In this document: one piece after another, positions 5,148-52,545 of the stretch | How the letters are laid out: each line of letters opens with the position of its first letter | How positions within the stretch are numbered: position 1 is the first letter of the stretch | Source of the DNA: Allacma fusca | Lineage: Eukaryota > Arthropoda > Collembola > Symphypleona > Sminthuridae | Length of the DNA stretch: 64,000 nucleotides | Direction of reading: 5' to 3' | Assembly (NCBI GenBank): GCA_947179485.1 | Contig: OX359249.1 | Span: forward strand, 5,704,001 to 5,768,000 | Translations under genes and position numbers: made by a program | The notes under the pieces: model-generated | Seen by the model: only the letters and a program-made list of their open reading frames with translations | What the model was told of the DNA's origin: nothing | Database searches by the model: none

Positions 5148-8100
5148 ATGGATGGAGAATTAAGTAGTTCGGAGAGAAATGGCATTTCCAAAATTCGGGA
5201 CTTAATTCGAAGACAGAGACAGGAGTCGGACGGGGGCTGTGACGATAGTGGTTCCGAGTTGGAATTCACATACGATGACTCAGACACTTACACCAATGAG
5301 ATCTCCGAATTGTACAGTTACACGGAGGTCCCGGAATTTCGCAAGAATCAAACTGCCTACGAAAATGTTATGAATCGATGGGGGATCCCTTTACAATGGC
5401 AAAGACTGTCTCCAGAATTGAGGAAATCTGCTGTCCTACGTCTTCTCAATCATCTTGAACTGTCCAACAAAACTCTTAGAGCCGAAGCGGCCAGAGCTGT
5501 TCTTTACATTTGTCAGGTATTTTTCAAAAAAAAAAAAGTTTATTCATTTTTTAATTCATTTTTGGGATCTTTTAGGAGTCATATGCCTTTTGGAAGTTTG
5601 GTAGAGTCAATTTACTTTTTTGTCACGTATTTATAATATCTGTTGAACTGTCAGTTGTGCTAGGAACGTTTCGAAGAAAGACAGATGTCAGTTTAAGTTG
5701 TAGGATTCAATTGGCATGATTTAGTTGGTTTTTTAAAATTATACTTTTGAATTAGACCGTATTTTCGTATTGGTAAAAATTTGTGAACCATATTGTCTTT
5801 TTGTATTTTTTTGTATTAATTTTTACTAGTGTTTTTATGTGGTATTGTGTGATTTAATTAATGTTTTTTGTACATTAGTTTGCGTTTTTTGAATTACAGT
5901 GTACTCCCTTACTAAGAGCACCCTTGAGGGGAACACATTTTGATTGTAATAATCATATGCTCTTATAGTATTTAAAAAGAAGAAATAATATTGTGGTTCA
6001 AGTATTTGGAATTCCAGGGAATTAGAGGAGGGGTCCGTTGTAGCGAGAGTACACTGTGGTTGTATTAGGTTAATTGTTTGCGAGGTTTTTTGTGGTTGGA
6101 GGATGTTTTTGTAGTAGTGTTTTGTGTATGTTTTCTGGATTAGCTGTTTTGGACTGAAATATTGGGTAGTAGTTTGTTTATAATTATTTAGGTTATTCAT
6201 TTGTATGAGTGGGGTGAATTGTTTAATTATCGGAGTAACGAATGGGAGTTAATGAAGGGTATGCTTTGAATTTACAGGGCTGCTGGACGGAAGTTCAGTC
6301 AGAACAAGAGCAGCAGCAGTGGACACGATTCAACGTGGCTGTTCTCCTGAAACATGGAATTTTCCAGGCTGTCACAGACCTACTAAGTTTAGAAATAGAG
6401 TGAGTGGATTTAAATAATTATTTAAAACGACTTGCGGAAGGCTCTGTCAGATTCTTTTAAGTTAGGGGTAGAATGCTGAAGTACAGGATTTATGTTTGAC
6501 GTTCGAATTTTAATGAGGGTTTTATATTGAAATTATGCAAGTGGTGATGATAAGTCAGTATTCATTATGGTAATTGTTTTGTTTGAGCAGTTTCGGTCCT
6601 ATGACTGTCCGTAAGCCTGCAGTGAGTTTAGCGGATTCGTCGGAGCTCCGAGTTATCTTAAGCATATTGTATACAATTATTGAGACAGTAAGAGTTCCAG
6701 CGGAGGATGGAGACACGGAGGAATTTGAAGAGCTCCGGAAATGGTTTATGGCGGAATTAGGTTCGTGGATATTATTTGAGGGGAAAACTGTAATTGGGAT
6801 GGTGAGGCAATATTGTCTGATGAATCCATGTTTGATTTTTATTTACAGCTCAACCTGTTCGTGATGAACTTTTAGCAATTAAATTGTTGAATATGGTTAC
6901 CAAGTTTTGCGGTGGCTCTGCTCCTCATTTTCCAATTAAAAAAGTACTTCTTTTACTGTGGAAAGTCATTTTGCTTTCGTTAGGGGGCACAAATGAACTT
7001 CGAGATTTGAAACGTGAGTTGATTTTTTAATGTGTGTAATTTTATATTTGTGTGGGAAATAATAATGGGAAATTTATGTGTACAGAAAAATATAGAGAGG
7101 CAGCTGGTCTTGCTCCTCTGAAAGAAGACACTTTGGAAGTATCGCGTAATATGAGAGCTTCATCACCGCCCGCCAGTGCTACTGACCTTATAGATGTTCA
7201 AAATGAAAGGAGAAGTTTAAGGCCTTTAAAAAGAGTGTGTTTACTCAAAAGAATGTCATTGTTAAGAGTAACATTCATCATGTCTTGAGTTAGGTATCTA
7301 ATTTTTTTAAATTCTTTTTGAACAACAGCAAAGTTTAATCAAGCAAAGTAGTTTGGACGAATCAGCCACATTGGACTTGGAGATGAATGACCAAGTCGAC
7401 GATGAAATGCGGGAAATTGAAGAGAGAAGAGCCATGGAGGAGTCTGGTGAACTACCTCAGCCTCCATCTCCTCGACCCTTGACACCTGTTCCTACTAAAA
7501 ATAGAGGTATAATTTGGCTCTGTTTGAACTAATAAACTACACTGCTTATATCAATTGCGTGTAGAAGGATGTACTTATAAAACAAAATTGTCTAACCCAA
7601 GGGCTTCCATGGACTCCGAAAGTTCGTCAGAAAGATTTAGATGCATTTCTGGATAACTCAAGGATGAAATTTGTGGGATTTCCTGTTCAAGGAGATCGGG
7701 ATACCCTTGCAGGATTACCGGCTCCAATTCATGAGGGAGTTAAAGTCTTGAAACAGGTTAGCTGTATTATTTATGCATGTTTGCATAGAATTTATAGGAA
7801 GGTCTTGATATTTCATGATCATAAAGAATGATAACGATTTCAATCTTCCAGCATATTTACGTATCGTTAAGCGAATGGCAAATGAACCGGGAGGAAGAAT
7901 TATGGAAATGCCCAATGTCTCATACTGAAGGAGAAGTGGATATTTGCAGTAACCCAGCCGAAGCTTTGTACTCAGTTATGCTTCCCAATCTGCCACAATA
8001 TATTATTGCGCTCTTAAAAATATTACTCGCTGCAGCACCTACCTCCAAGAGTAAATCCGAATCTATAAATATAATGGCGGATGTCCTACCTGAAGAAATG

Positions 8101-10272
8101 CCGTAAGTGAAATTAATTTCATAAGCCCTTTCATGAACTTGATCTTGGAAACATTTAAAATTCGCGTGTATTTTTCAGCATGACGGTCGTCCAGTCAATG
8201 AAATTAGGCATTGATGTTGCCAGACATAAAGAAATAATTGTAAAGGCCATTTCGGGCATAATTCTCCTGCTGTTGAAGCATACTAAAATAAACCACATCT
8301 ACCAGTTCGAATTCATTTCTCAACATCTTGTCTTTGCCAATTGCATCCCCTTGGTTTTAAAGTTTTTCAACCAGAATATTACTGCTTACATCACTGCTAA
8401 AAATACGTAAGTTCTGGTACTAAAGCTATACAGTACCGAAGGATCAAGTTTTACAAGATGTTATAGTTATAACAACAGTTGTGCTAACTTGCGAGCATAT
8501 TTTTTTTATTTTTACAAATTTAGGATAGCCTTGACAGACTTCCCTTCATGCGTTCTAGAAGATTTACCAGAATTAACACCTGAAAGTTTAGAACTTGGAG
8601 AACCTCAGCCTTATTGTTGGCGGAATTTATTTGCTTGCATTAATCTACTAAGAATACTCAATAAATTGACAAAATGGAAGCATTCACGAATAATGGTAAG
8701 TTTCAGTTTTTTCTCGTGCCGGTAGTTATTTTATGTTTTCATAAAATTGTAGAGATACTGTAAGCAGAAGCTAAAGCATTCATATATATGGAACTTAGCA
8801 AAAATGATTTTTATCTTTGACTAAGAAAGGTAACGCTTGATTTAATTGATTGTTTGCAGATGTTAGTTGTTTTCAAATCAGCCCCGATTCTCAAGCGATC
8901 ACTGCGAGTCAAGCACCCCGTGTTGCAGCTGTATATCTTGAAATTGTTAAAAATGCAAACGAAATACTTAGGACGTCAGTGGAGGAAGGCAAACATGAAA
9001 ACCATGTCGGCAATTTACCAAAAGGTTCGACACAGGCTAACAGATGACTGGGCGTATGGAAACGGTAAGGCTTGCTCAAGAAAATATTAGAAGTAGTTTC
9101 TCAGATTTTTATCTTCAAAGTTCTTTAGTACAGGCATGTCCCAATCAGTTGTAGTTGCATTGAGGAAGCAAGATGTTATCTTTGATTTCATCACGTTACA
9201 TTGACCTTGAGTGCTGATGCATTTAATTATTGAGTTTACAGGTATTTGACAGATATGCAGTTTTGTGTCTGACGTCAAAGTGTCAAGTTGTACATACCCG
9301 GTAGATCGGGTAGATGCTTATTGTTATTTTGAAATCTCTAGGAATATGTAGCAGTGTCGATAGGGATCTTATAGAATACTGAAATAAAAGTATTCAAATG
9401 AGGAGCATGATAATTAGGGTTCCCAGGGTCAGTAACTTTATGAGTTTATTTGCTGAATCTATTTTTAGGAAAAGGAATAACAAATACAAATCGATATAAT
9501 GTGCAGTGTTATCACAATGCAATCAGTAGCACCACGTTGACGTCACCTGCTACTAAATTATAGAGTGAAATTAGAATTGGGACTCTATGTATCCTAGATA
9601 TTGCCTACGTAAATGCTTATGTACTTGAAGCATTATGTGTGAATACAATTGGGTAAATATTACTTGGCAGGTTATAAACATTGCTTCCCAATTTTTCATG
9701 TCGTAAAAAATTTGTTGTAACTGTGCAAAATTGTAGTTTCTAGAGCAGCTGATCTAAATTGCTTTCTTTACAGATTTAGACGCAAGGCCATGGGACTTCC
9801 AGGCGGAAGAATGTGCTCTCCGTGCAGCTGTCGATCGTTTTAACAGTAGAAGATACGGTGATGCAACTAAAGTTAGCACCGTTTCTCACTTACTTTTTCT
9901 AAATTGTTAAGAGGTTGTGTATAAAAGCGAAGTAATCCTGAATCTAAACGTCTTGAAATTCGTTGGGACTTAATTACTTCAATTTAAAGCTCTAGTAGCA
10001 AGTTATTTTAATTTGTAGCGCCTATTATTATTTTCTAATATAACAAAACATACATGGTAGCTTATGTAAATGCTAATGAATGTCATCTTACTTGATCATT
10101 TTAGATGCTTCCGGATTTTGAACCCGTGGATCAATGTGTCACAAGCGTTCTGGGTAGACCCGTCCATTTGACGAGTACCTTCAAGGAAAATTACGAGGTA
10201 TGGCTTGAACAGGAAGTCTTCAATAATCCTATCGATTGGGATGAGCTCATAAGAACAAACGGGATCATTTAG
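5148..10272 (+). CDS. STRIP1: Striatin-interacting protein (STRIP1/2 orthologue, FAM40), 13 coding exons
   Basis: This encodes the scaffold subunit of the STRIPAK complex, which ties striatins and PP2A to GCK-family kinases and acts in Hippo signalling, cytoskeleton and endosome traffic. Coding exons: 5148-5516, 6278-6399, 6591-6760, 6849-7013, 7086-7234, 7329-7506, 7602-7756, 7852-8102, 8179-8406, 8524-8695, 8860-9064, 9774-9871, 10105-10272. They join in frame to 809 codons ending in TAG; human STRIP1 has about 837. Landmarks shared with the family: ELSYSYTE-like ELYSYTE in exon 1; [14 protein letters not shown] (about 238-251); [15 protein letters not shown] (297-311); [13 protein letters not shown] (385-397); [20 protein letters not shown] (483-502); [10 protein letters not shown] (511-520); [20 protein letters not shown] in exon 11; [14 protein letters not shown] in exon 12; [16 protein letters not shown] near the C-terminus. 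The first half matches the N1221 domain and the second the DUF3402 domain. It lacks the proline-rich N-terminus of vertebrate STRIP1. All donors are GT and all acceptors AG. The exon 6/7 junction and the start of translation are the least certain points. Whether it corresponds to STRIP1 or STRIP2 is moot in invertebrates with one copy. Confidence 0.96.
5897..6056. mobile_element. MITE inside STRIP intron 1
   Basis: A 160-bp element with inverted termini. The left end reads CAGTGTACTCCCTTACTAAG; the complement of the right end reads CAGTGTACTCTCGCTACAAC, so the first ten bases are identical. The left end is preceded by TA, while the right flank is TG, consistent with a decayed TA target duplication. 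It carries no coding capacity. It sits in the longest STRIP intron (761 bp). The family recurs throughout the intergenic DNA of this window. Confidence 0.7.
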
Positions 10273-17200: not shown

Positions 17201-18927
17201 ACGAAGATTTAGTGACGCCATGAATATATAAATACATGTATGTATTTCTCCAGTCCATGAGTTGGAACTGCAGGAAGAGAATAAAAAGGAAGTGGGTTGG
17301 GTCTGAGACGAAAAGTGCTTTTTAACCAGGAAATTATTATTCTCTTTCATCTTTTTTTTCCAAAACATAAACCTGAGAGGATGCATGATGATGAGGACAC
17401 AATGATGGTAAGAAGCTCATCTAAAAATTTACGTCCACAATGTTTCTTCCTAATTTGGAAACTTTCAATGAGTTCCTACAATCTTGTCTATCCATTTAGT
17501 CTTGTATGTGCGGGCAGGGCTGGGAGATGAACAAGTCTTCTTTGGCATGGCTTCTTCCCTTCTCTTCATGGAATAAATATCCCTGGAGTAACTCCTGGAT
17601 TAAATGTCCTCCCGTGTAGTGTAATTCAAAACAAAAAAAAAAGTTCATGCCCATATGTCGGAGAGTCTCAGGCCTCAGCACTTAAATTACTTTTTCCGCA
17701 TAAAGTTTTCCCTTCAAAGACCTTCTCACAGTCCTCACTAGCCACGTCCACTGACCTCTATCTCGAGAAACGTTTCCTAAAAGTTTGACACTCCCTTGAC
17801 TCTTGAGATGCTCTTATTGGGACGAGATTATCATTATGCTAATTTACCCCAGTATTTTTGATCCTATAGAAAATACACCGGGATGACTTGGAACGAACTA
17901 CATTGCTCAATTCAAGCACTTTATGAAGGCACCCTTTAAAAGGTCCTAATTTTAGACTTTTTACAGTAAAGCTTTTCTCATGAGAAATATTAATAGGAAA
18001 ATGTGTCTAAATATTTCCGCCCCAGTAGAAAAAATGCACTTACAGGGAGTGGGCCCTTTACGGTGCAGTCTCTTTATTAGAGCATCTTCGAAGCCCTTAC
18101 AATTTTATTGCTCCAGTAACGAGCTATTTTAAAGTTACAAAATTAACCCAATTGTAACAAATGGGAGAATCCCAAAGTATTACCGGATCTCATACAAAAA
18201 AATAATATTATTACGGGATCTGTTATGACAGCAATTGCTGTACAATAAACTGTCCCTCCAGCGACATTTTCCCAACAACGATATTTCTCAATTTCTGTGG
18301 GCCAAAATTTGCAGAGCTACATCGTGCAGCATGAATACACACGGGGAACAAGAGCCTAAAATTTTTTCCCAAGGAGAATCCCTTACTAGAAACCTCAACC
18401 TGTACATGTAGAAATGAAGGTAATGAGAAAAATTAATTAAAGTTCGTCCTAAAAGCAGGAAATTGTAAATTATGTCCATACAAATATTCTTACAAGGGGA
18501 AATGTTATAACGAGAACTTACAGTACATAAGACCTTGTGTGTGTGTTATGTATGTTGCTTATTTGTGGTGAGGTCGGTTCAATAATAATTCATTTTGAGA
18601 TACTATCGAGAGATTCCTCCATTAAATGGTTCTCCAATACTCCAGCCAATAATAATGCAGAGGTAGCCTGAGCTTGAGATCTGGTCCTTTCACTTTTCTG
18701 GACATCACCTCAGAGCCCAAGCCAGTAGTAATAATGAGTGCCTACTTAATGTCACTTCTTCCTTTTTCATCTGGGATGGGCGTTAGCCCTTGATGAACTT
18801 CTGGTAAACATGATAAAAAAAATCATGGAGATTGCATCAGAGTATACGTCCAAGACCAGAACTCCAGGTCGTCCCCATGTCTCAAAGCGCTATGAAGTTA
18901 GCAAAAACTACCTTAGGCCTTCAGATT
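14245..18927. other. Intergenic DNA with few MITE ends
   Basis: No gene recognised. Two copies of the palindrome TGACCTAGGTCA lie at 15170-15181 and 15327-15338. A decayed MITE-like segment (TACAGTAAAGCTTTTCTCAT to GGAGTGGGCCCTTTACGGTG) occupies about 17963-18075, and a right end GTTATAACGAGAACTTACAG lies at 18504-18523. Confidence 0.5.
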
Positions 18928-18999
18928 AGCAGAGTGGCGCAGTGGAAGCGTGCTGGGCCCATAACCCAGAGGTCCGTGGATCGAAACCACGCTCTGCTA
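18928..18999 (+). tRNA. tRNA-iMet: Initiator tRNA-Met (CAT anticodon)
   Basis: A 72-nt cytosolic initiator tRNA folds cleanly. The acceptor stem AGCAGAG (18928-18934) pairs with CTCTGCT (18992-18998), with discriminator A. The anticodon CAT is at 18960-18962, in the GGGC-CCATAA-CCCA arm typical of initiators. The T arm pairs CGTGG with CCACG around the loop ATCGAAA. The A1:T72 pair, the GGG:CCC anticodon-stem pairs, and A54 with A60 in the T loop are all eukaryotic initiator hallmarks. There is no intron and CCA is not encoded. The A-box is TGGCGCAGTGG and the B-box is around GGATCGAAACC. The T stem (CGTGG/CCACG) differs from the common GATGG/CCATC by a change that keeps pairing, so the gene looks functional. 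Confidence 0.95.
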
Positions 19000-19004
19000 A
19001 CTAA

Positions 19005-25000: not shown

Positions 25001-25250
25001 ATAGACTCCCTTCACCCAACAATCCAATAGCAGACCGTCTCTCACTTCCCAGCAATTTTTATTATGACATTACCATAATGCGGCCTCCAAACTTAAACAT
25101 TTTTACAGCAAGTTCAAAGTTGAAAGATTACTTTGAAATGTTCTGACTTTCGAGACTTCCGACGACCAGACAGACCCAAAACCACCCGCTCCAAACACCA
25201 ACCATCCACCCTGACGTCCATGCTCGTATCCGTACTGGAGTACAGTATAT

Positions 25251-26112
25251 ATCGTCGGTGAAGAGGCAAAATGATCTACGTGCATGATCGATTAGAATCA
25301 AAATGATCTACTTGCAGTTTCACTAAAGGCAAAATGATCTACTTGCATTGAATTTTAAAAGCAAAATGATCTACATGCAGCTTTTCCTAAAAGCAAAATG
25401 ATCTAGATACAAATTATAATAAAAACAATATAAGTAAACACATTCTAATGCCGGTGTACAAAAATGCGAGGTATTCCAAGAGGTATTCAAAATCTTTTAT
25501 ACATGGATTTAATTCCCCAATGCCTCCATTTCTTTCTTTCAGTAACATTGAAAAAAAAATGTTGTCAATTATGATTTAGCATTTGAAAATGATTCCGAAT
25601 GTTATGATAATGGTGATGATCGTAAAATACGATTTGAAAAAACTCCAGGTTGAGAATTATTAAAGGGAAAACCAATTCAATGTGCACACTAACACATGAG
25701 CTTACTGTGATTTTGATTCGTCTTTTAATTCGTCGATTTTAAAATAAATGAATGTTGCAGTTTTAGTAACTAAAAATGTATTAGATGCAATAAGTGAAAT
25801 TAACTTTAGTTGCCGGAATGATCCTTAGTAATAGCAAACCCTTCAGACAATATTAACCCACAACCCTAGGTAAATTACAGTCATGGTTAGCCCTTATAAG
25901 CCACGTGTCCTCCTTACAGATGCTATTTTTCTCACAAAAAAAAATTGACCAGCACTTAGATCATTTTGCTTTTAAGGAAAATTGTATGTAGATCAGTTTG
26001 CTTTTAAAGAGGCTTGCACCCAGTTCATTTTGCCTTTAGGGAAAAAGTTATGTAGATCATTTTGATTCTAATCGATTATGCACCTAGATCATTTTGCCTC
26101 TTCACCGACGAT
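25251..26112. mobile_element. Foldback-type element with 5 x 32-bp repeat arrays as terminal inverted repeats
   Basis: The two ends are inverted copies: the left starts ATCGTCGGTGAAGAGGC and the right ends GCCTCTTCACCGACGAT. Each arm of about 165 bp is a tandem array whose unit carries GCAAAATGATCTA. In the left arm units start at 25266, 25298, 25329, 25361 and 25393; in the right arm the complementary units end at 25969, 26001, 26033, 26065 and 26097, exactly 32 bp apart. The arms flank about 540 bp of core without a usable frame; the longest suggestive piece (about 25580-25655, acidic, NYDLAFENDSECYDNGDD) is only a few dozen codons. ATAT borders both sides if the element is taken as 25253-26110. 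The architecture resembles Drosophila FB elements, whose inverted repeats also contain tandem 31-bp units, but sequence kinship is not claimed. Confidence 0.85.
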
Positions 26113-28127
26113 ATGTAAGTACCACAAGAGAGTCAGGATCACCAGAAGACCACACCGCTTGATCAACCCCTAAAAGTTCTGGTAATTCGATCCTTTCCTC
26201 TAGAATTTCTTCAACCGAATAAAAAAAAATACAGTCGTTCTTCAATTTATGCCTTCACAGAGTCCTTCCCAAAATCTCAGAATCTGGGACATGCTCCAAG
26301 CCAACATTTAAATTTACGAAGGGGAGATAAATGGGTCGAGTGGCTCTGGACGAATTAGTATCAACAAATGGACTCCACACCGGTAATTACTACAGAAGAG
26401 ACACACAAGTGTCAAATTTTTCTCCCTAGTATCATTTGTTATATCCAACCTCTTCACACATCTTACATAATTATAGATACTCGAATAAGAGATGCCCTTT
26501 GAAGAGCAGTTCCTCAGTAGATACAGAATATGTCCTCACAATTTTTGTTCTTACAACAGTAAGGGATATTAAGAATCAAAATTTCCTCTCTTAGCGCTCC
26601 TTGAGGGGAAAAATCCAGTGCCCTGTAAATAGATACTGCATAAAAATATATCCTAACAGCATACATATCCTAGCAGATCCCATAACTCCTGACATTACTC
26701 TTATATTTACAGCTTGTCCACCCTCAGACCAAAGATTGGGAGGAATTACAAACAGCGTCTAAAGAGACCCCGTGTAAAAGTATCCTGGTTGGAAATTCTA
26801 GGAATATAGTAATGCGTGAGTGAAATTGCTTCTCATAACTTGACAGGACACATTAGGACCCCTCCCCCCACAAAAAAAAACATTGGGACAATCTGAAATA
26901 AGAAAAATTGCCAAAGAAAACTATTAAAAATATCGTAGCTCTTCTGTAATCAACTTTAAGACTCATATGTGTCAATCCCAGAATTTCCCAACAATTTCCC
27001 TTCAAAAATGTCCAAAGGACCCCAAAGCTAAAAAAATCCTCCTCACACCTCCGCCTTTAATTTATGACTCGAAAAAATAATTTAGGCATGAGCAGTATTA
27101 CTCCCTATTATTCCCACAACAATTAGAGGGAGACGCGGAGATTGATTCTCTGGTCGAGCTACAGCAATAACAAGGACAGTGCTCTGTTTATAAAAGCAAC
27201 CCTCTGAGTAATTACTAATGTTAGGGAAATTCTCCTCTAAGGAGAAAAATGTAAATCTGCTAAATGACAAAGCATGGGATTTATCCTTGCTCTTTTAGAA
27301 CATGCTCCTAGAAGGGGCTCCTGCACAGGGGAGGACACTGTACTGGGAAATAAATAAAGTCATTGAGGACCGGATGGGCATTTAAGAACACACCATTGAG
27401 GATTTGCGAATTGATGTCCACATAGATAGATACTCCTTCCCATATGAATTTCCTTCCATCCCAATCCTATACAAACACTCCATAGAAACTGTGACTTTCC
27501 CCAGCAAGGGACGTTGCGGAAAAGGAACTGTAATGCATACAGTAGGTATACAGTAGTAGCATAGTAGATACTCCGTAACATTGGAAGAGTTCAGGGTGCT
27601 AAATTGAAACTGGTCGGACACGATCATAATCACTTCCCCAGCGGAGCAATGACTTCAGAGAAGTCAGACTGCACATTTTACTGTATAGTAAAAATCTTCC
27701 CTTGCATTCATTGAGTGTCTCATTTGATGCAGTCGTCCGGATCCGTACAGTTCAGTCTCTGTCTACAAGCACTCCTCAGAGTACCAGCAACATTGGGCTC
27801 TTCACACGTGATGCTCTCTTTAAATAAAAAAAATTAACATTGAAGGGGAAAGTACTCAATAGTTGTCATCTCCTTCAAAAAAAAAAACAACCTCCTAACA
27901 GGGATCTCTTCACAACCCGAGCATCCTGTAGTCTTACCGCATCCTACAGCTCTTTAAAGAATCCAAGCTCACAGCATGGGAAAGAATTACCGCCTAAACT
28001 TCAAGAGGATGCATCATACATATTGCTCTTGTGAGCAGATACAGATTAGCTACAGACTGCTCTCTCCCTCTCTCTCTGTAAGACACCTCTCAAAGAACGG
28101 CTCCTTTCCCAAACAAAAATGCTTTGT

Positions 28128-34685: not shown

Positions 34686-36292
34686 TGCGTCTGTTAGAGC
34701 TGTCCTTATAAACCCTGTGGACTGTATCCATCCGCTGCATTTCCATTGAGTTGCATCCACAACGAATCCAGTGGCATGGACTTGTTTGGTGTTATTTTCA
34801 CACCTTGGGAAAATACACACATCATTGACGGGATAATATGCGTAGGAAAAAAAAATTAGGAACGTGTGCATGTAAACAGTGAGGGTGAGGATTTGGAATG
34901 AGTTGATGCACGGGGAGTGATATGGTGTGAGAATGTAATTGTAGCTGTCAAAGGGTTACAAGTTGACAATGAAACCCAGTGGAGAAATCCTTATCTCATG
35001 ACATTATCAATTATCCTTAATATGTGAGCAGCATTTTAATATGTATTTTCCCCACCTCTTCCGGTCTTGTCAAAAAACCCCAACTTTTTGTCTTATGTCA
35101 TTGGCCTAATCAACAACTTTCATTCCGACACACACTATGTAGGACGAGCCCAGTCTGAAATGTACAGAGTCAAATCTCATTGCAACGGCCTCCTATGTAT
35201 ATCCAATTAATAGAACATTATTGTCAAGGGTTGCGAGCCCAAATATTTAGACACTTGCCTGACTAACAAAATACGATTTTTCCTCTAAAAAACCTACTCT
35301 TCAGAATTAACTCTGCACGAACTAAATGTTCCCTATAATGGATAAGAGCATTGCTTCCATGGAACAATATTATTTGGAGTCGTTCCCATCTGTCTTAATG
35401 CTAGGTTTTTCCCTTGTAAATGCGTTCCCAGTAGACTCTCTCTATATTGGAATTCGTCTCCATTTGGCAAGAAAAATATTTGGATGCATTTCCAATAGTA
35501 CTTTAAATTTTCTCTGTGTACGATAGCCTGGGGTTATAAGAGGGAAATTTGACTACTTTCAAGGGTGCTATTATACAGAGTCGGGATATAGACTGCACTG
35601 TATGAATTCAAATGTTGTCATTCAACCCACAAGGACCATTATTTTCCACAGCTGTAAAGCGTCTCTTGAACTTGTCTCCTTTCCTATAACTTTAGTGTCA
35701 CGTCTTAATCTCGAACTCTCTGCTGCGTGCCTGAACCGTTTTCAAAACATGAGACGCAGTTGCAGTCGGAGTTTGTAAACACAACGAATGCACGAGTCTT
35801 TACATCAACATCAAAATGTACAGTGTAACCTCCCCTCAAGAGACACCCTCCTCAGAGTACTTTCTCTATGTATAGGGTCTAATGGCCGTAGTTTGTACAC
35901 TCTGGAAATATTTTGACTCTCCTCAAAATATCCTATTTCCCACTATTTCCCAATATTTCGTTATTTAGACATGAAAGTCAGAATTTTTATATTGAAGGGG
36001 CAAATTGATCTACATCCTATGTTTTTGTACAGCCTGAAGATCTTGTTCCTCTTTAGTGAGGATACATCCCATTATTAAATATGGGGTGGGAGTAATTAAA
36101 TGACATCCTCCAGGAATCTCCCAACTAGGCAAAATAATACTAGAAATTAATTCCCATCTGAATAGTCTGCTGGACTCTCACAGCAGTTATTACAGCTCCA
36201 GAATTTATTTCAAGTGGGGTCTAGTGTTCTCCCAGATTTTCAAATTTACAGGAATATTGATTGCCAAATGTTACTGCTGAGTTAGCAGGATT

Positions 36293-51417: not shown

Positions 51418-52320
51418 TACGTAATAATTTGAGTTTCTAATTTCCTGTGCACGTTTTCCCCACTCTACTACGCGGTTCTGATCTCAAACGTTTTTACGCT
51501 GTCAAAGACGCAATTTGCCAAGTGAATACGACGTCATAGAGAAGTGGAAGCTCCGCATGGAACGAAGCAGTAATAACATGGCATTGATCCCGTCATGTGT
51601 AGATAGTTGTATACTATATTGTATACTTATATATATAGATATATATACAATGTATGGTAAACAATTCTGCATGCAAATTGATGTCCTGCATGAAATCCTA
51701 TGGAAATACGTACTGGAGGATCCCAGAGCACTGACTTTGTAATTATGCACAGTATGTACATATATCTATGGCCACCTGAGATCTGAGATGTTGAGAAATG
51801 GGGGATTTCGAAACATATGAGTATTTCTCATATTGCAATCATAGTGGATCAAATACTCACAATCAGATAACCCTCATCTCCCTTCGGCTTCTTCTTGCAT
51901 CATGTAAACATTTAGCTCCCACGGTAAAATCATTTTTTTTATTTGTTCTTGGTAAAAGCTTATCGAAGAATTTCGGAACAATCTTTTTTACGCCTCATTC
52001 CGTTGCTCCTTCTTTGATAAGCATCACATCACTCCAAAGATGCAATCTTATTTGTGTCATCATTTTCATACTTGTCACTTCATTTGACAGATCTCTATAA
52101 AGTTTCGTACACTTTTCTTTGCTGAATTTCATACACTGGTTGTTGCAAATCATTTTTCTCCCCCTGTCTCATATCACGAATGGGTTAAAAAAATATGCTG
52201 ATTATCCTGTTTTGTAAAGAAATTTCTTTCAGATTTTTTGGAATTTGTTTCATTCCACTGGCCCAAAGTGGGGCAAAGACAGATTATTTTTGGAAATGGG
52301 AATTTTTGGATTAGTTTCTA

Positions 52321-52545
52321 TTCAAACCAATGTTTGTTTTCGGTTAAGTTCCTATTCAAACCAATGTTAGTTTTCGGTTAAGTTCCTATTCAAACCAATG
52401 TTAGTTTTCGGTTAAGTTCCTATTCAAACCAATGTTAGTTTTCGGTTAAGTTCCTATTCAAACCAATGTTAATTTTCGGTTATGTTCCTATTCAACCCAA
52501 TGTTAATTTTCGGTTAAGTTTCTATTCAAACCAATGCAAATGTTT
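52321..52545. repeat. 34-bp tandem repeat, seven units with exact spacing
   Basis: TTCAAACCAATGTTAGTTTT followed by CGGTTAAGTTCCTA starts at 52321, 52355, 52389, 52423, 52457, 52491 and 52525. The middle units are identical and the outer ones carry single changes. It is a young minisatellite in non-coding DNA. Confidence 0.95.

Follow-up and report, generated by a model that had tools for sequence, protein, structure and literature searches.

The element described here is very probably a young, non-autonomous cut-and-paste DNA transposon, a MITE of foldback architecture, for which mobilisation by a transposase supplied in trans and protein binding at its repeated units are proposed. It lies in the window, the whole 64,000-nucleotide stretch of Allacma fusca DNA that was analysed. 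Like a MITE, it is short and non-coding, has terminal inverted repeats (TIRs) and a constant target-site duplication (TSD), and occurs in many near-uniform dispersed copies. Like a foldback element, it has TIRs built from tandem repeats and arms able to pair. The dispersed copies and their shorter relatives make this a real transposon family of known architecture, though with an unusual TSD length of 4 bp. A literature search found no description of the present element, and the extracts of PMC4455052 and PMC10294476 that were consulted hold nothing decisive on it.

A sequence-only reading had placed two inverted arms with five units each at 25251..26112. The arms were confirmed by a motif scan and an arm alignment (Table 1). 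The measured unit spacing is 32, 31, 32 and 32 bp in the left arm, where 31-33 bp had been given, and exactly 32 bp throughout the right arm, as described. The 13-mer GCAAAATGATCTA is exact in four of the five left units and two of the five right units; the remaining four have one or two mismatches. With up to two mismatches allowed, the window contains 12 matches, ten of them inside the arms, against a mean of 3.25 and a maximum of 8 in a shuffle control (n = 100). The arms align over 158 bp with 85% identity (E 1.7e-45), and their outer 66 bp are 95% identical. A terminus common to both arms was correctly recognised, but the outermost AT letters of the proposed 17 bp belong to the TSD. The core had been given as 540 bp without a transposase; no coding capacity was seen, and the non-repeat core is close to that length at 513 bp. 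Pfam returned nothing above cut-off for 10 of the 17 frames overlapping the element (best E 0.094).

Table 1. Boundaries and arm architecture of the window copy (units on the minus strand start at the higher coordinate).
Feature	Position	Strand	Remark
Whole element, family A	25253..26110	+	858 bp; boundaries common to 51 distinct copies
Left TSD ATAT	25249..25252	.	flank comparison between copies
Left 13-nt terminus CGTCGGTGAAGAG	25253..25265	+	
Left unit 1	25266..25297	+	
Left unit 2	25298..25328	+	31 bp
Left unit 3	25329..25360	+	
Left unit 4	25361..25392	+	
Left unit 5	25393..25424	+	
Core, non-coding	25425..25937	.	513 bp; longest stop-to-stop frame 62 aa
Right unit 5	25938..25969	-	
Right unit 4	25970..26001	-	
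Right unit 3	26002..26033	-	
Right unit 2	26034..26065	-	
Right unit 1	26066..26097	-	
Right 13-nt terminus, inverted	26098..26110	-	
Right TSD ATAT	26111..26114	.	flank comparison between copies

Elsewhere, the window contains exons of a STRIP/FAM40-type gene (5148-8725, plus strand; Pfam N1221 and DUF3402), a tRNA-Met gene (18927-19001, plus strand) and a tandem array with a 34-bp unit (52313-52536; 6.6 copies, 95% matches).

The source assembly (393 Mb, 91 contigs) was searched with the arm and with the core. The best 40 of 1426 first-look candidates for the arm were scored; matches at 99-100% arm identity lie on C58 and on six large contigs, and the elements at all 40 loci are full-length (835-860 bp), with the termini CGTCGGTG...CACCGACG. 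For the core, the best 40 of 404 candidates were scored. The loci of both searches, with identical 60-base flanks counted once, gave a set of 51 distinct full-length copies which, as best matches, are 95-100% identical. A diverged neighbour in L072 was excluded from the set, as it falls short of full length when aligned. This sister element (L072:5792-6561) is ~86% identical, adjoins a family-A copy and has a decayed TSD (ATAT/ATTT). The sequence-only reading had asked for numerous dispersed copies ending alike, and these exist; within the scope of the tests, the window element is not the only copy. That reading's view of a non-autonomous transposon is also upheld by the shared ends and TSDs of dispersed copies in which no coding capacity was seen.

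Aligned copy flanks, the proposed route to the duplication length, gave 4 bp in 51 of 51 copies: ATAT in 49, GTAT in one and ATAA in one. Since the last two are GTAT/GTAT and ATAA/ATAA copies, all four bases are duplicated. A pyrimidine stands immediately 5' of the TSD in 47 of the 51 copies and a purine immediately 3' in 43. Complementarity of the flanks is low at individual sites (18/51 copies at the first outside base, 11-21/51 farther out), so that the target is palindromic at most in consensus. The joined flanks of 40 copies had no empty-site match among the fetched loci. Flank similarity outside the termini ends after a few AT letters. Because the flanks cease to match there, the window element is not a segmental inverted duplication; as far as tested, the arms do not run on past the shared termini.

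Some copies look young enough for present activity. Two further loci are 100% identical to the window copy across 858 bp. Singleton substitutions number 64 across the 43,450 aligned bases of the 51 copies, a value in which youth and uniformity are biased upward because the copies were picked as best matches; the family overall is more diverse. Left and right arms (~85% identity) diverge far more than most of the 51 copies do from each other, so the copies inherited the differences between their arms.

The exact 14-nt terminus of family A occurs 431+461 = 892 times genome-wide (reversed control 2), a count that slightly overstates the family, as at least two of 18 probed unpaired termini (L085, L091) belong to an unrelated repeat. 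The terminus subset CGTCGGTGAAGAGGCAAAATGGTC has 45 occurrences (control 0). The first 100 of the 892 termini, on contig C1 up to 44 Mb, form 34 convergent pairs, 33 with lengths of 364-857 bp and one of 1676 bp, and leave 32 termini unpaired. The variant terminus of family B, CGTCGCTGAAGAGGCRAAATGG, occurs 398+378 = 776 times (control 0). Its first 100 occurrences form 32 pairs of 77-425 bp, 14 of them exactly 334 bp, with 36 termini unpaired. The 334-bp element in L106 is a bare foldback of five units, a short loop and five units, with the TSD ATAT. Family-B arms are 79-81% identical to family-A arms, and the ends common to the families follow CGTCG[GC]TGAAGAGG. The terminus has no match in viral contigs. 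The unit pattern has one match there, which lacks a surrounding arm and was taken as chance. Genome contigs of other sources gave one match, in a bacterial contig (GC 50%), again with no surrounding arm.

Minimal elements have one unit per arm and are 77 bp (L110, L115, L116, L118, L121) or 83 bp long (L107, L098). Two of the seven, L116 and L121, have a perfect TSD ATAT; one mismatch is present in L098, L107, L110 and L115, and two in L118. Such mismatches are as expected of old copies, yet they give weaker support. A partner terminus is recognisable in 18 of the 19 family-B and minimal loci L106-L124, L120 being the exception, and 14 of these 18 have a perfect 4-bp TSD. The window itself contains, at 35987-36060, a stretch with 81% identity over 42 bp to a 77-83-bp minimal element (E 2e-5), including the common middle TTTTTGTACAGC; from this similarity it is a probable decayed copy. 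At C1:40630071-40638022, three family-B termini of the same orientation are each exactly 3965 bp apart, probably a tandem array that has acquired a family-B copy.

Left-arm units start at bases 14, 46, 77, 109 and 141 in 51/51 copies, and right-arm units at 14, 46, 78, 110 and 142 in 50/51; the scan finds three units in the exception. Weak half-step matches of the scan at 30 and 125 are read as chance. Representatives of A, A2, A3, B and B2 have the same grid, and in four of these five one arm takes its 31-bp step from unit 2 to unit 3. One arm of A2 has six units, and its 31-bp step falls one unit further in. The sister element in L072 has six units in one arm, the additional one being an exact 32 bp. 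Unit 1 begins at base 14 of both arms in all 18 partnered family-B and minimal loci and in L098. Arms of five units predominate among family-B loci, but units have been gained or lost, or steps have shifted, in L114, L119, L122, L123 and L124. Each 32-bp unit contains the conserved 19-bp motif GCAAAATGATCTAcNTGCA. In 50 unit windows, a few of which are half-step matches, conservation is strong at letters 2-8, 12-13, 16 and 18 and mostly absent at letters 20-26; a TTAAAA-like block ends the unit. At a B-DNA helical repeat of 10.5, the 32-bp grid corresponds to about three turns, and in sequence terms it would look like a phased set of putative protein sites.

The autonomous relative that the sequence-only reading had envisaged was not among the termini and inward stretches probed: no transposase-encoding element with the same ends was found at 18 unpaired termini, in L075, L083 and L084, or in five inward stretches of 4.0-5.7 kb. 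These loci and stretches gave nested insertions, other MITEs, solo arms or unrelated sequence. The first 100 of the 892 family-A termini include 32 unpaired ones, and probing covered 19 of these, namely L083 and the 18 loci L085-L102. By our own assignment, the 18 comprise five A-like and four B-like elements, three of a further family C, one minimal element, three terminus-only or truncated copies and two of an unrelated repeat. Half of the 36 unpaired family-B termini among the first 100 of 776 were probed (18; L107-L124), and 17 have a partner within 425 bp. L125-L129 yielded no partner terminus and no transposase recognised by eye.

Several candidates for the partner were rejected. L075 (2826 bp, TSD ATAT) is a family copy interrupted by 2.1 kb of inserted sequence, which contains a Myb/SANT frame (PF13873, E 2.1e-6). 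L083 and L084 are family copies carrying insertions of ~1.9 kb and ~0.8 kb, respectively. The edges of the insertion in L084 share 8 bp of the element, as would be expected of a hAT-like 8-bp TSD. L078 and L080 have in common with the element only the outer terminus and up to ~125 bp of arm. L080 extended by L103 and L093 extended by L104 showed no second terminus in ~7 kb; the other end of L099 was likewise taken, as L105. A PIF/Harbinger element in L103 (about 0.5-3.9 kb), near L080, is separate and has a DDE_Tnp_4 frame, a MADF gene and its own 33-bp TIRs.

The families share termini and TSD, which points to trans-mobilisation by one transposase. This enzyme would cut at CGTCGG and insert with a 4-bp stagger, as Sola-type transposases do, among others. 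The 19-bp motif is most likely a binding site for the transposase or a helper protein, and with a period of about three helical turns, successive putative sites would face the same side of the helix. Both proposals, transposase binding and the single helical face, agree with the conservation of the motif, with the 32-bp phase and with the constant start of unit 1 at base 14 in related families. By analogy, the unit may be bound as the repeats of Galileo are by a THAP domain. One unit per arm can probably suffice: the 77-bp elements L116 and L121 have intact TSDs, so the array is probably a booster and not a requirement. Arms with five units would presumably improve recruitment or synapsis, an effect consistent with their copy number.

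The arrays could instead be slippage by-products of a hairpin-forming element, free of binding sites and kept only through the youth of the copies. Units do expand, as the exact extra unit of the L072 sister copy indicates, and they were lost or gained in some B copies; the whole window element, as a single strand, also folds back strongly (RNA energies, without a shuffle control). However, the motif and the 32-bp phase are common to families whose arms are only ~80% alike, while unit letters 20-26 have drifted. The start at base 14 is kept even in 77-bp elements, and five-unit arms recur in A and in most of the B copies measured. We regard slippage as rather unlikely. A local segmental inverted duplication or satellite, with no transposon at all, has a counterpart in C8:8.80-8.92 Mb (L070, L071, L073), where four family-A copies at ~40-kb steps probably belong to a large tandem segmental duplication that includes the element. 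The probability of this reading is next to nil, given that copies at 51 distinct sites have the same ends, each with a TSD, and that the arms stop at the termini. Going beyond the trans-mobilised MITE preferred here, a transposase superfamily that is new, or unknown as a foldback driver, might read the helically phased array of 19-bp sites from its fixed 14th base and form an ordered multimer along each arm, with graded substrates (one unit, five units, five units plus core) in one genome. We regard this as rather improbable.

The superfamily was judged from the TSD. Its 4 bp differ from the 7-8 bp of P elements (including Galileo) and hAT and from the 3 bp of PIF/Harbinger, and the GTAT/GTAT and ATAA/ATAA copies disagree with the TA-only duplication of Tc1/mariner; these assignments were rejected. 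Ginger and Chapaev also duplicate 4 bp and are alternatives to Sola, although their termini begin with TGT or CAC and not with CGT. Mutator/MULE elements, including Rehavkus-type foldbacks, were rejected because their TSD is 7-12 bp in the consulted extract of PMC10741241, against 4 bp in 51/51 copies. A kinship with Mutator-type foldbacks (Rehavkus, Tm1, Tetris) or with Galileo/P would account for the similar arm design, and foldbacks mostly seem Mutator-like in the part of PMC4079207 used here; with 8-10 bp in Tetris (same source), the TSD leaves it very improbable. The 4-bp TSD suggests an origin of the foldback design outside Mutator and P as well. Sola is the best fit by this character, as a guess rather than an assignment. 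Extracts of PMC10741241 give Sola a 4-bp TSD, TIRs of 11 to 1124 bp and very variable ends, and those of PMC3627910 give Sola2 AT-rich 4-bp TSDs including ATAT. The partner would then be a Sola transposon and the arrays merely variable long TIRs. A Sola DDD transposase linked to the element ends was not found in the part of the genome examined, and the chance of membership falls a little short of even. Phased 32-bp arrays go unmentioned in the extracts of both sources.

Tandem units within inverted repeats are known from other transposons. In Tc1/mariner IR/DR elements, each inverted repeat contains several transposase-binding direct repeats, as the arms here contain direct repeats, but the duplication is TA, whereas all four bases are duplicated here. 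Drosophila FB elements have inverted repeats of tandem 31-bp units. They had been named as a precedent by the sequence-only reading; the architecture is indeed alike, but kinship is unsupported, the 4-bp TSD arguing for a different superfamily. FB and Tetris of D. virilis are likewise non-autonomous, with long inverted repeats of tandem units and a non-coding middle, and Tetris shares only its TIR ends with a relative (PMC4079207, in part). Tetris arms reach 1,735 bp and its TSD 8-10 bp (same extract), compared with ~170 bp and 4 bp here. The present element differs from both in that nearly every family-A copy measured has five-unit arms and in its many near-identical copies. Galileo also has tandem repeats within long TIRs, and these repeats provide its transposase with additional sites that the THAP domain binds (extract of PMC3688188). 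Its P-type transposase and TIRs of 0.5-1.2 kb (same extract) have no counterpart seen here.

The role of the repeated arms of foldback elements is an old question, which the binding sites of Galileo have answered only in part. In the present genome, families with common termini and a common unit occur together, some with a single unit per arm and others with about five, and some with a core and others lacking it. This series of unit numbers would make the function of the array directly testable.
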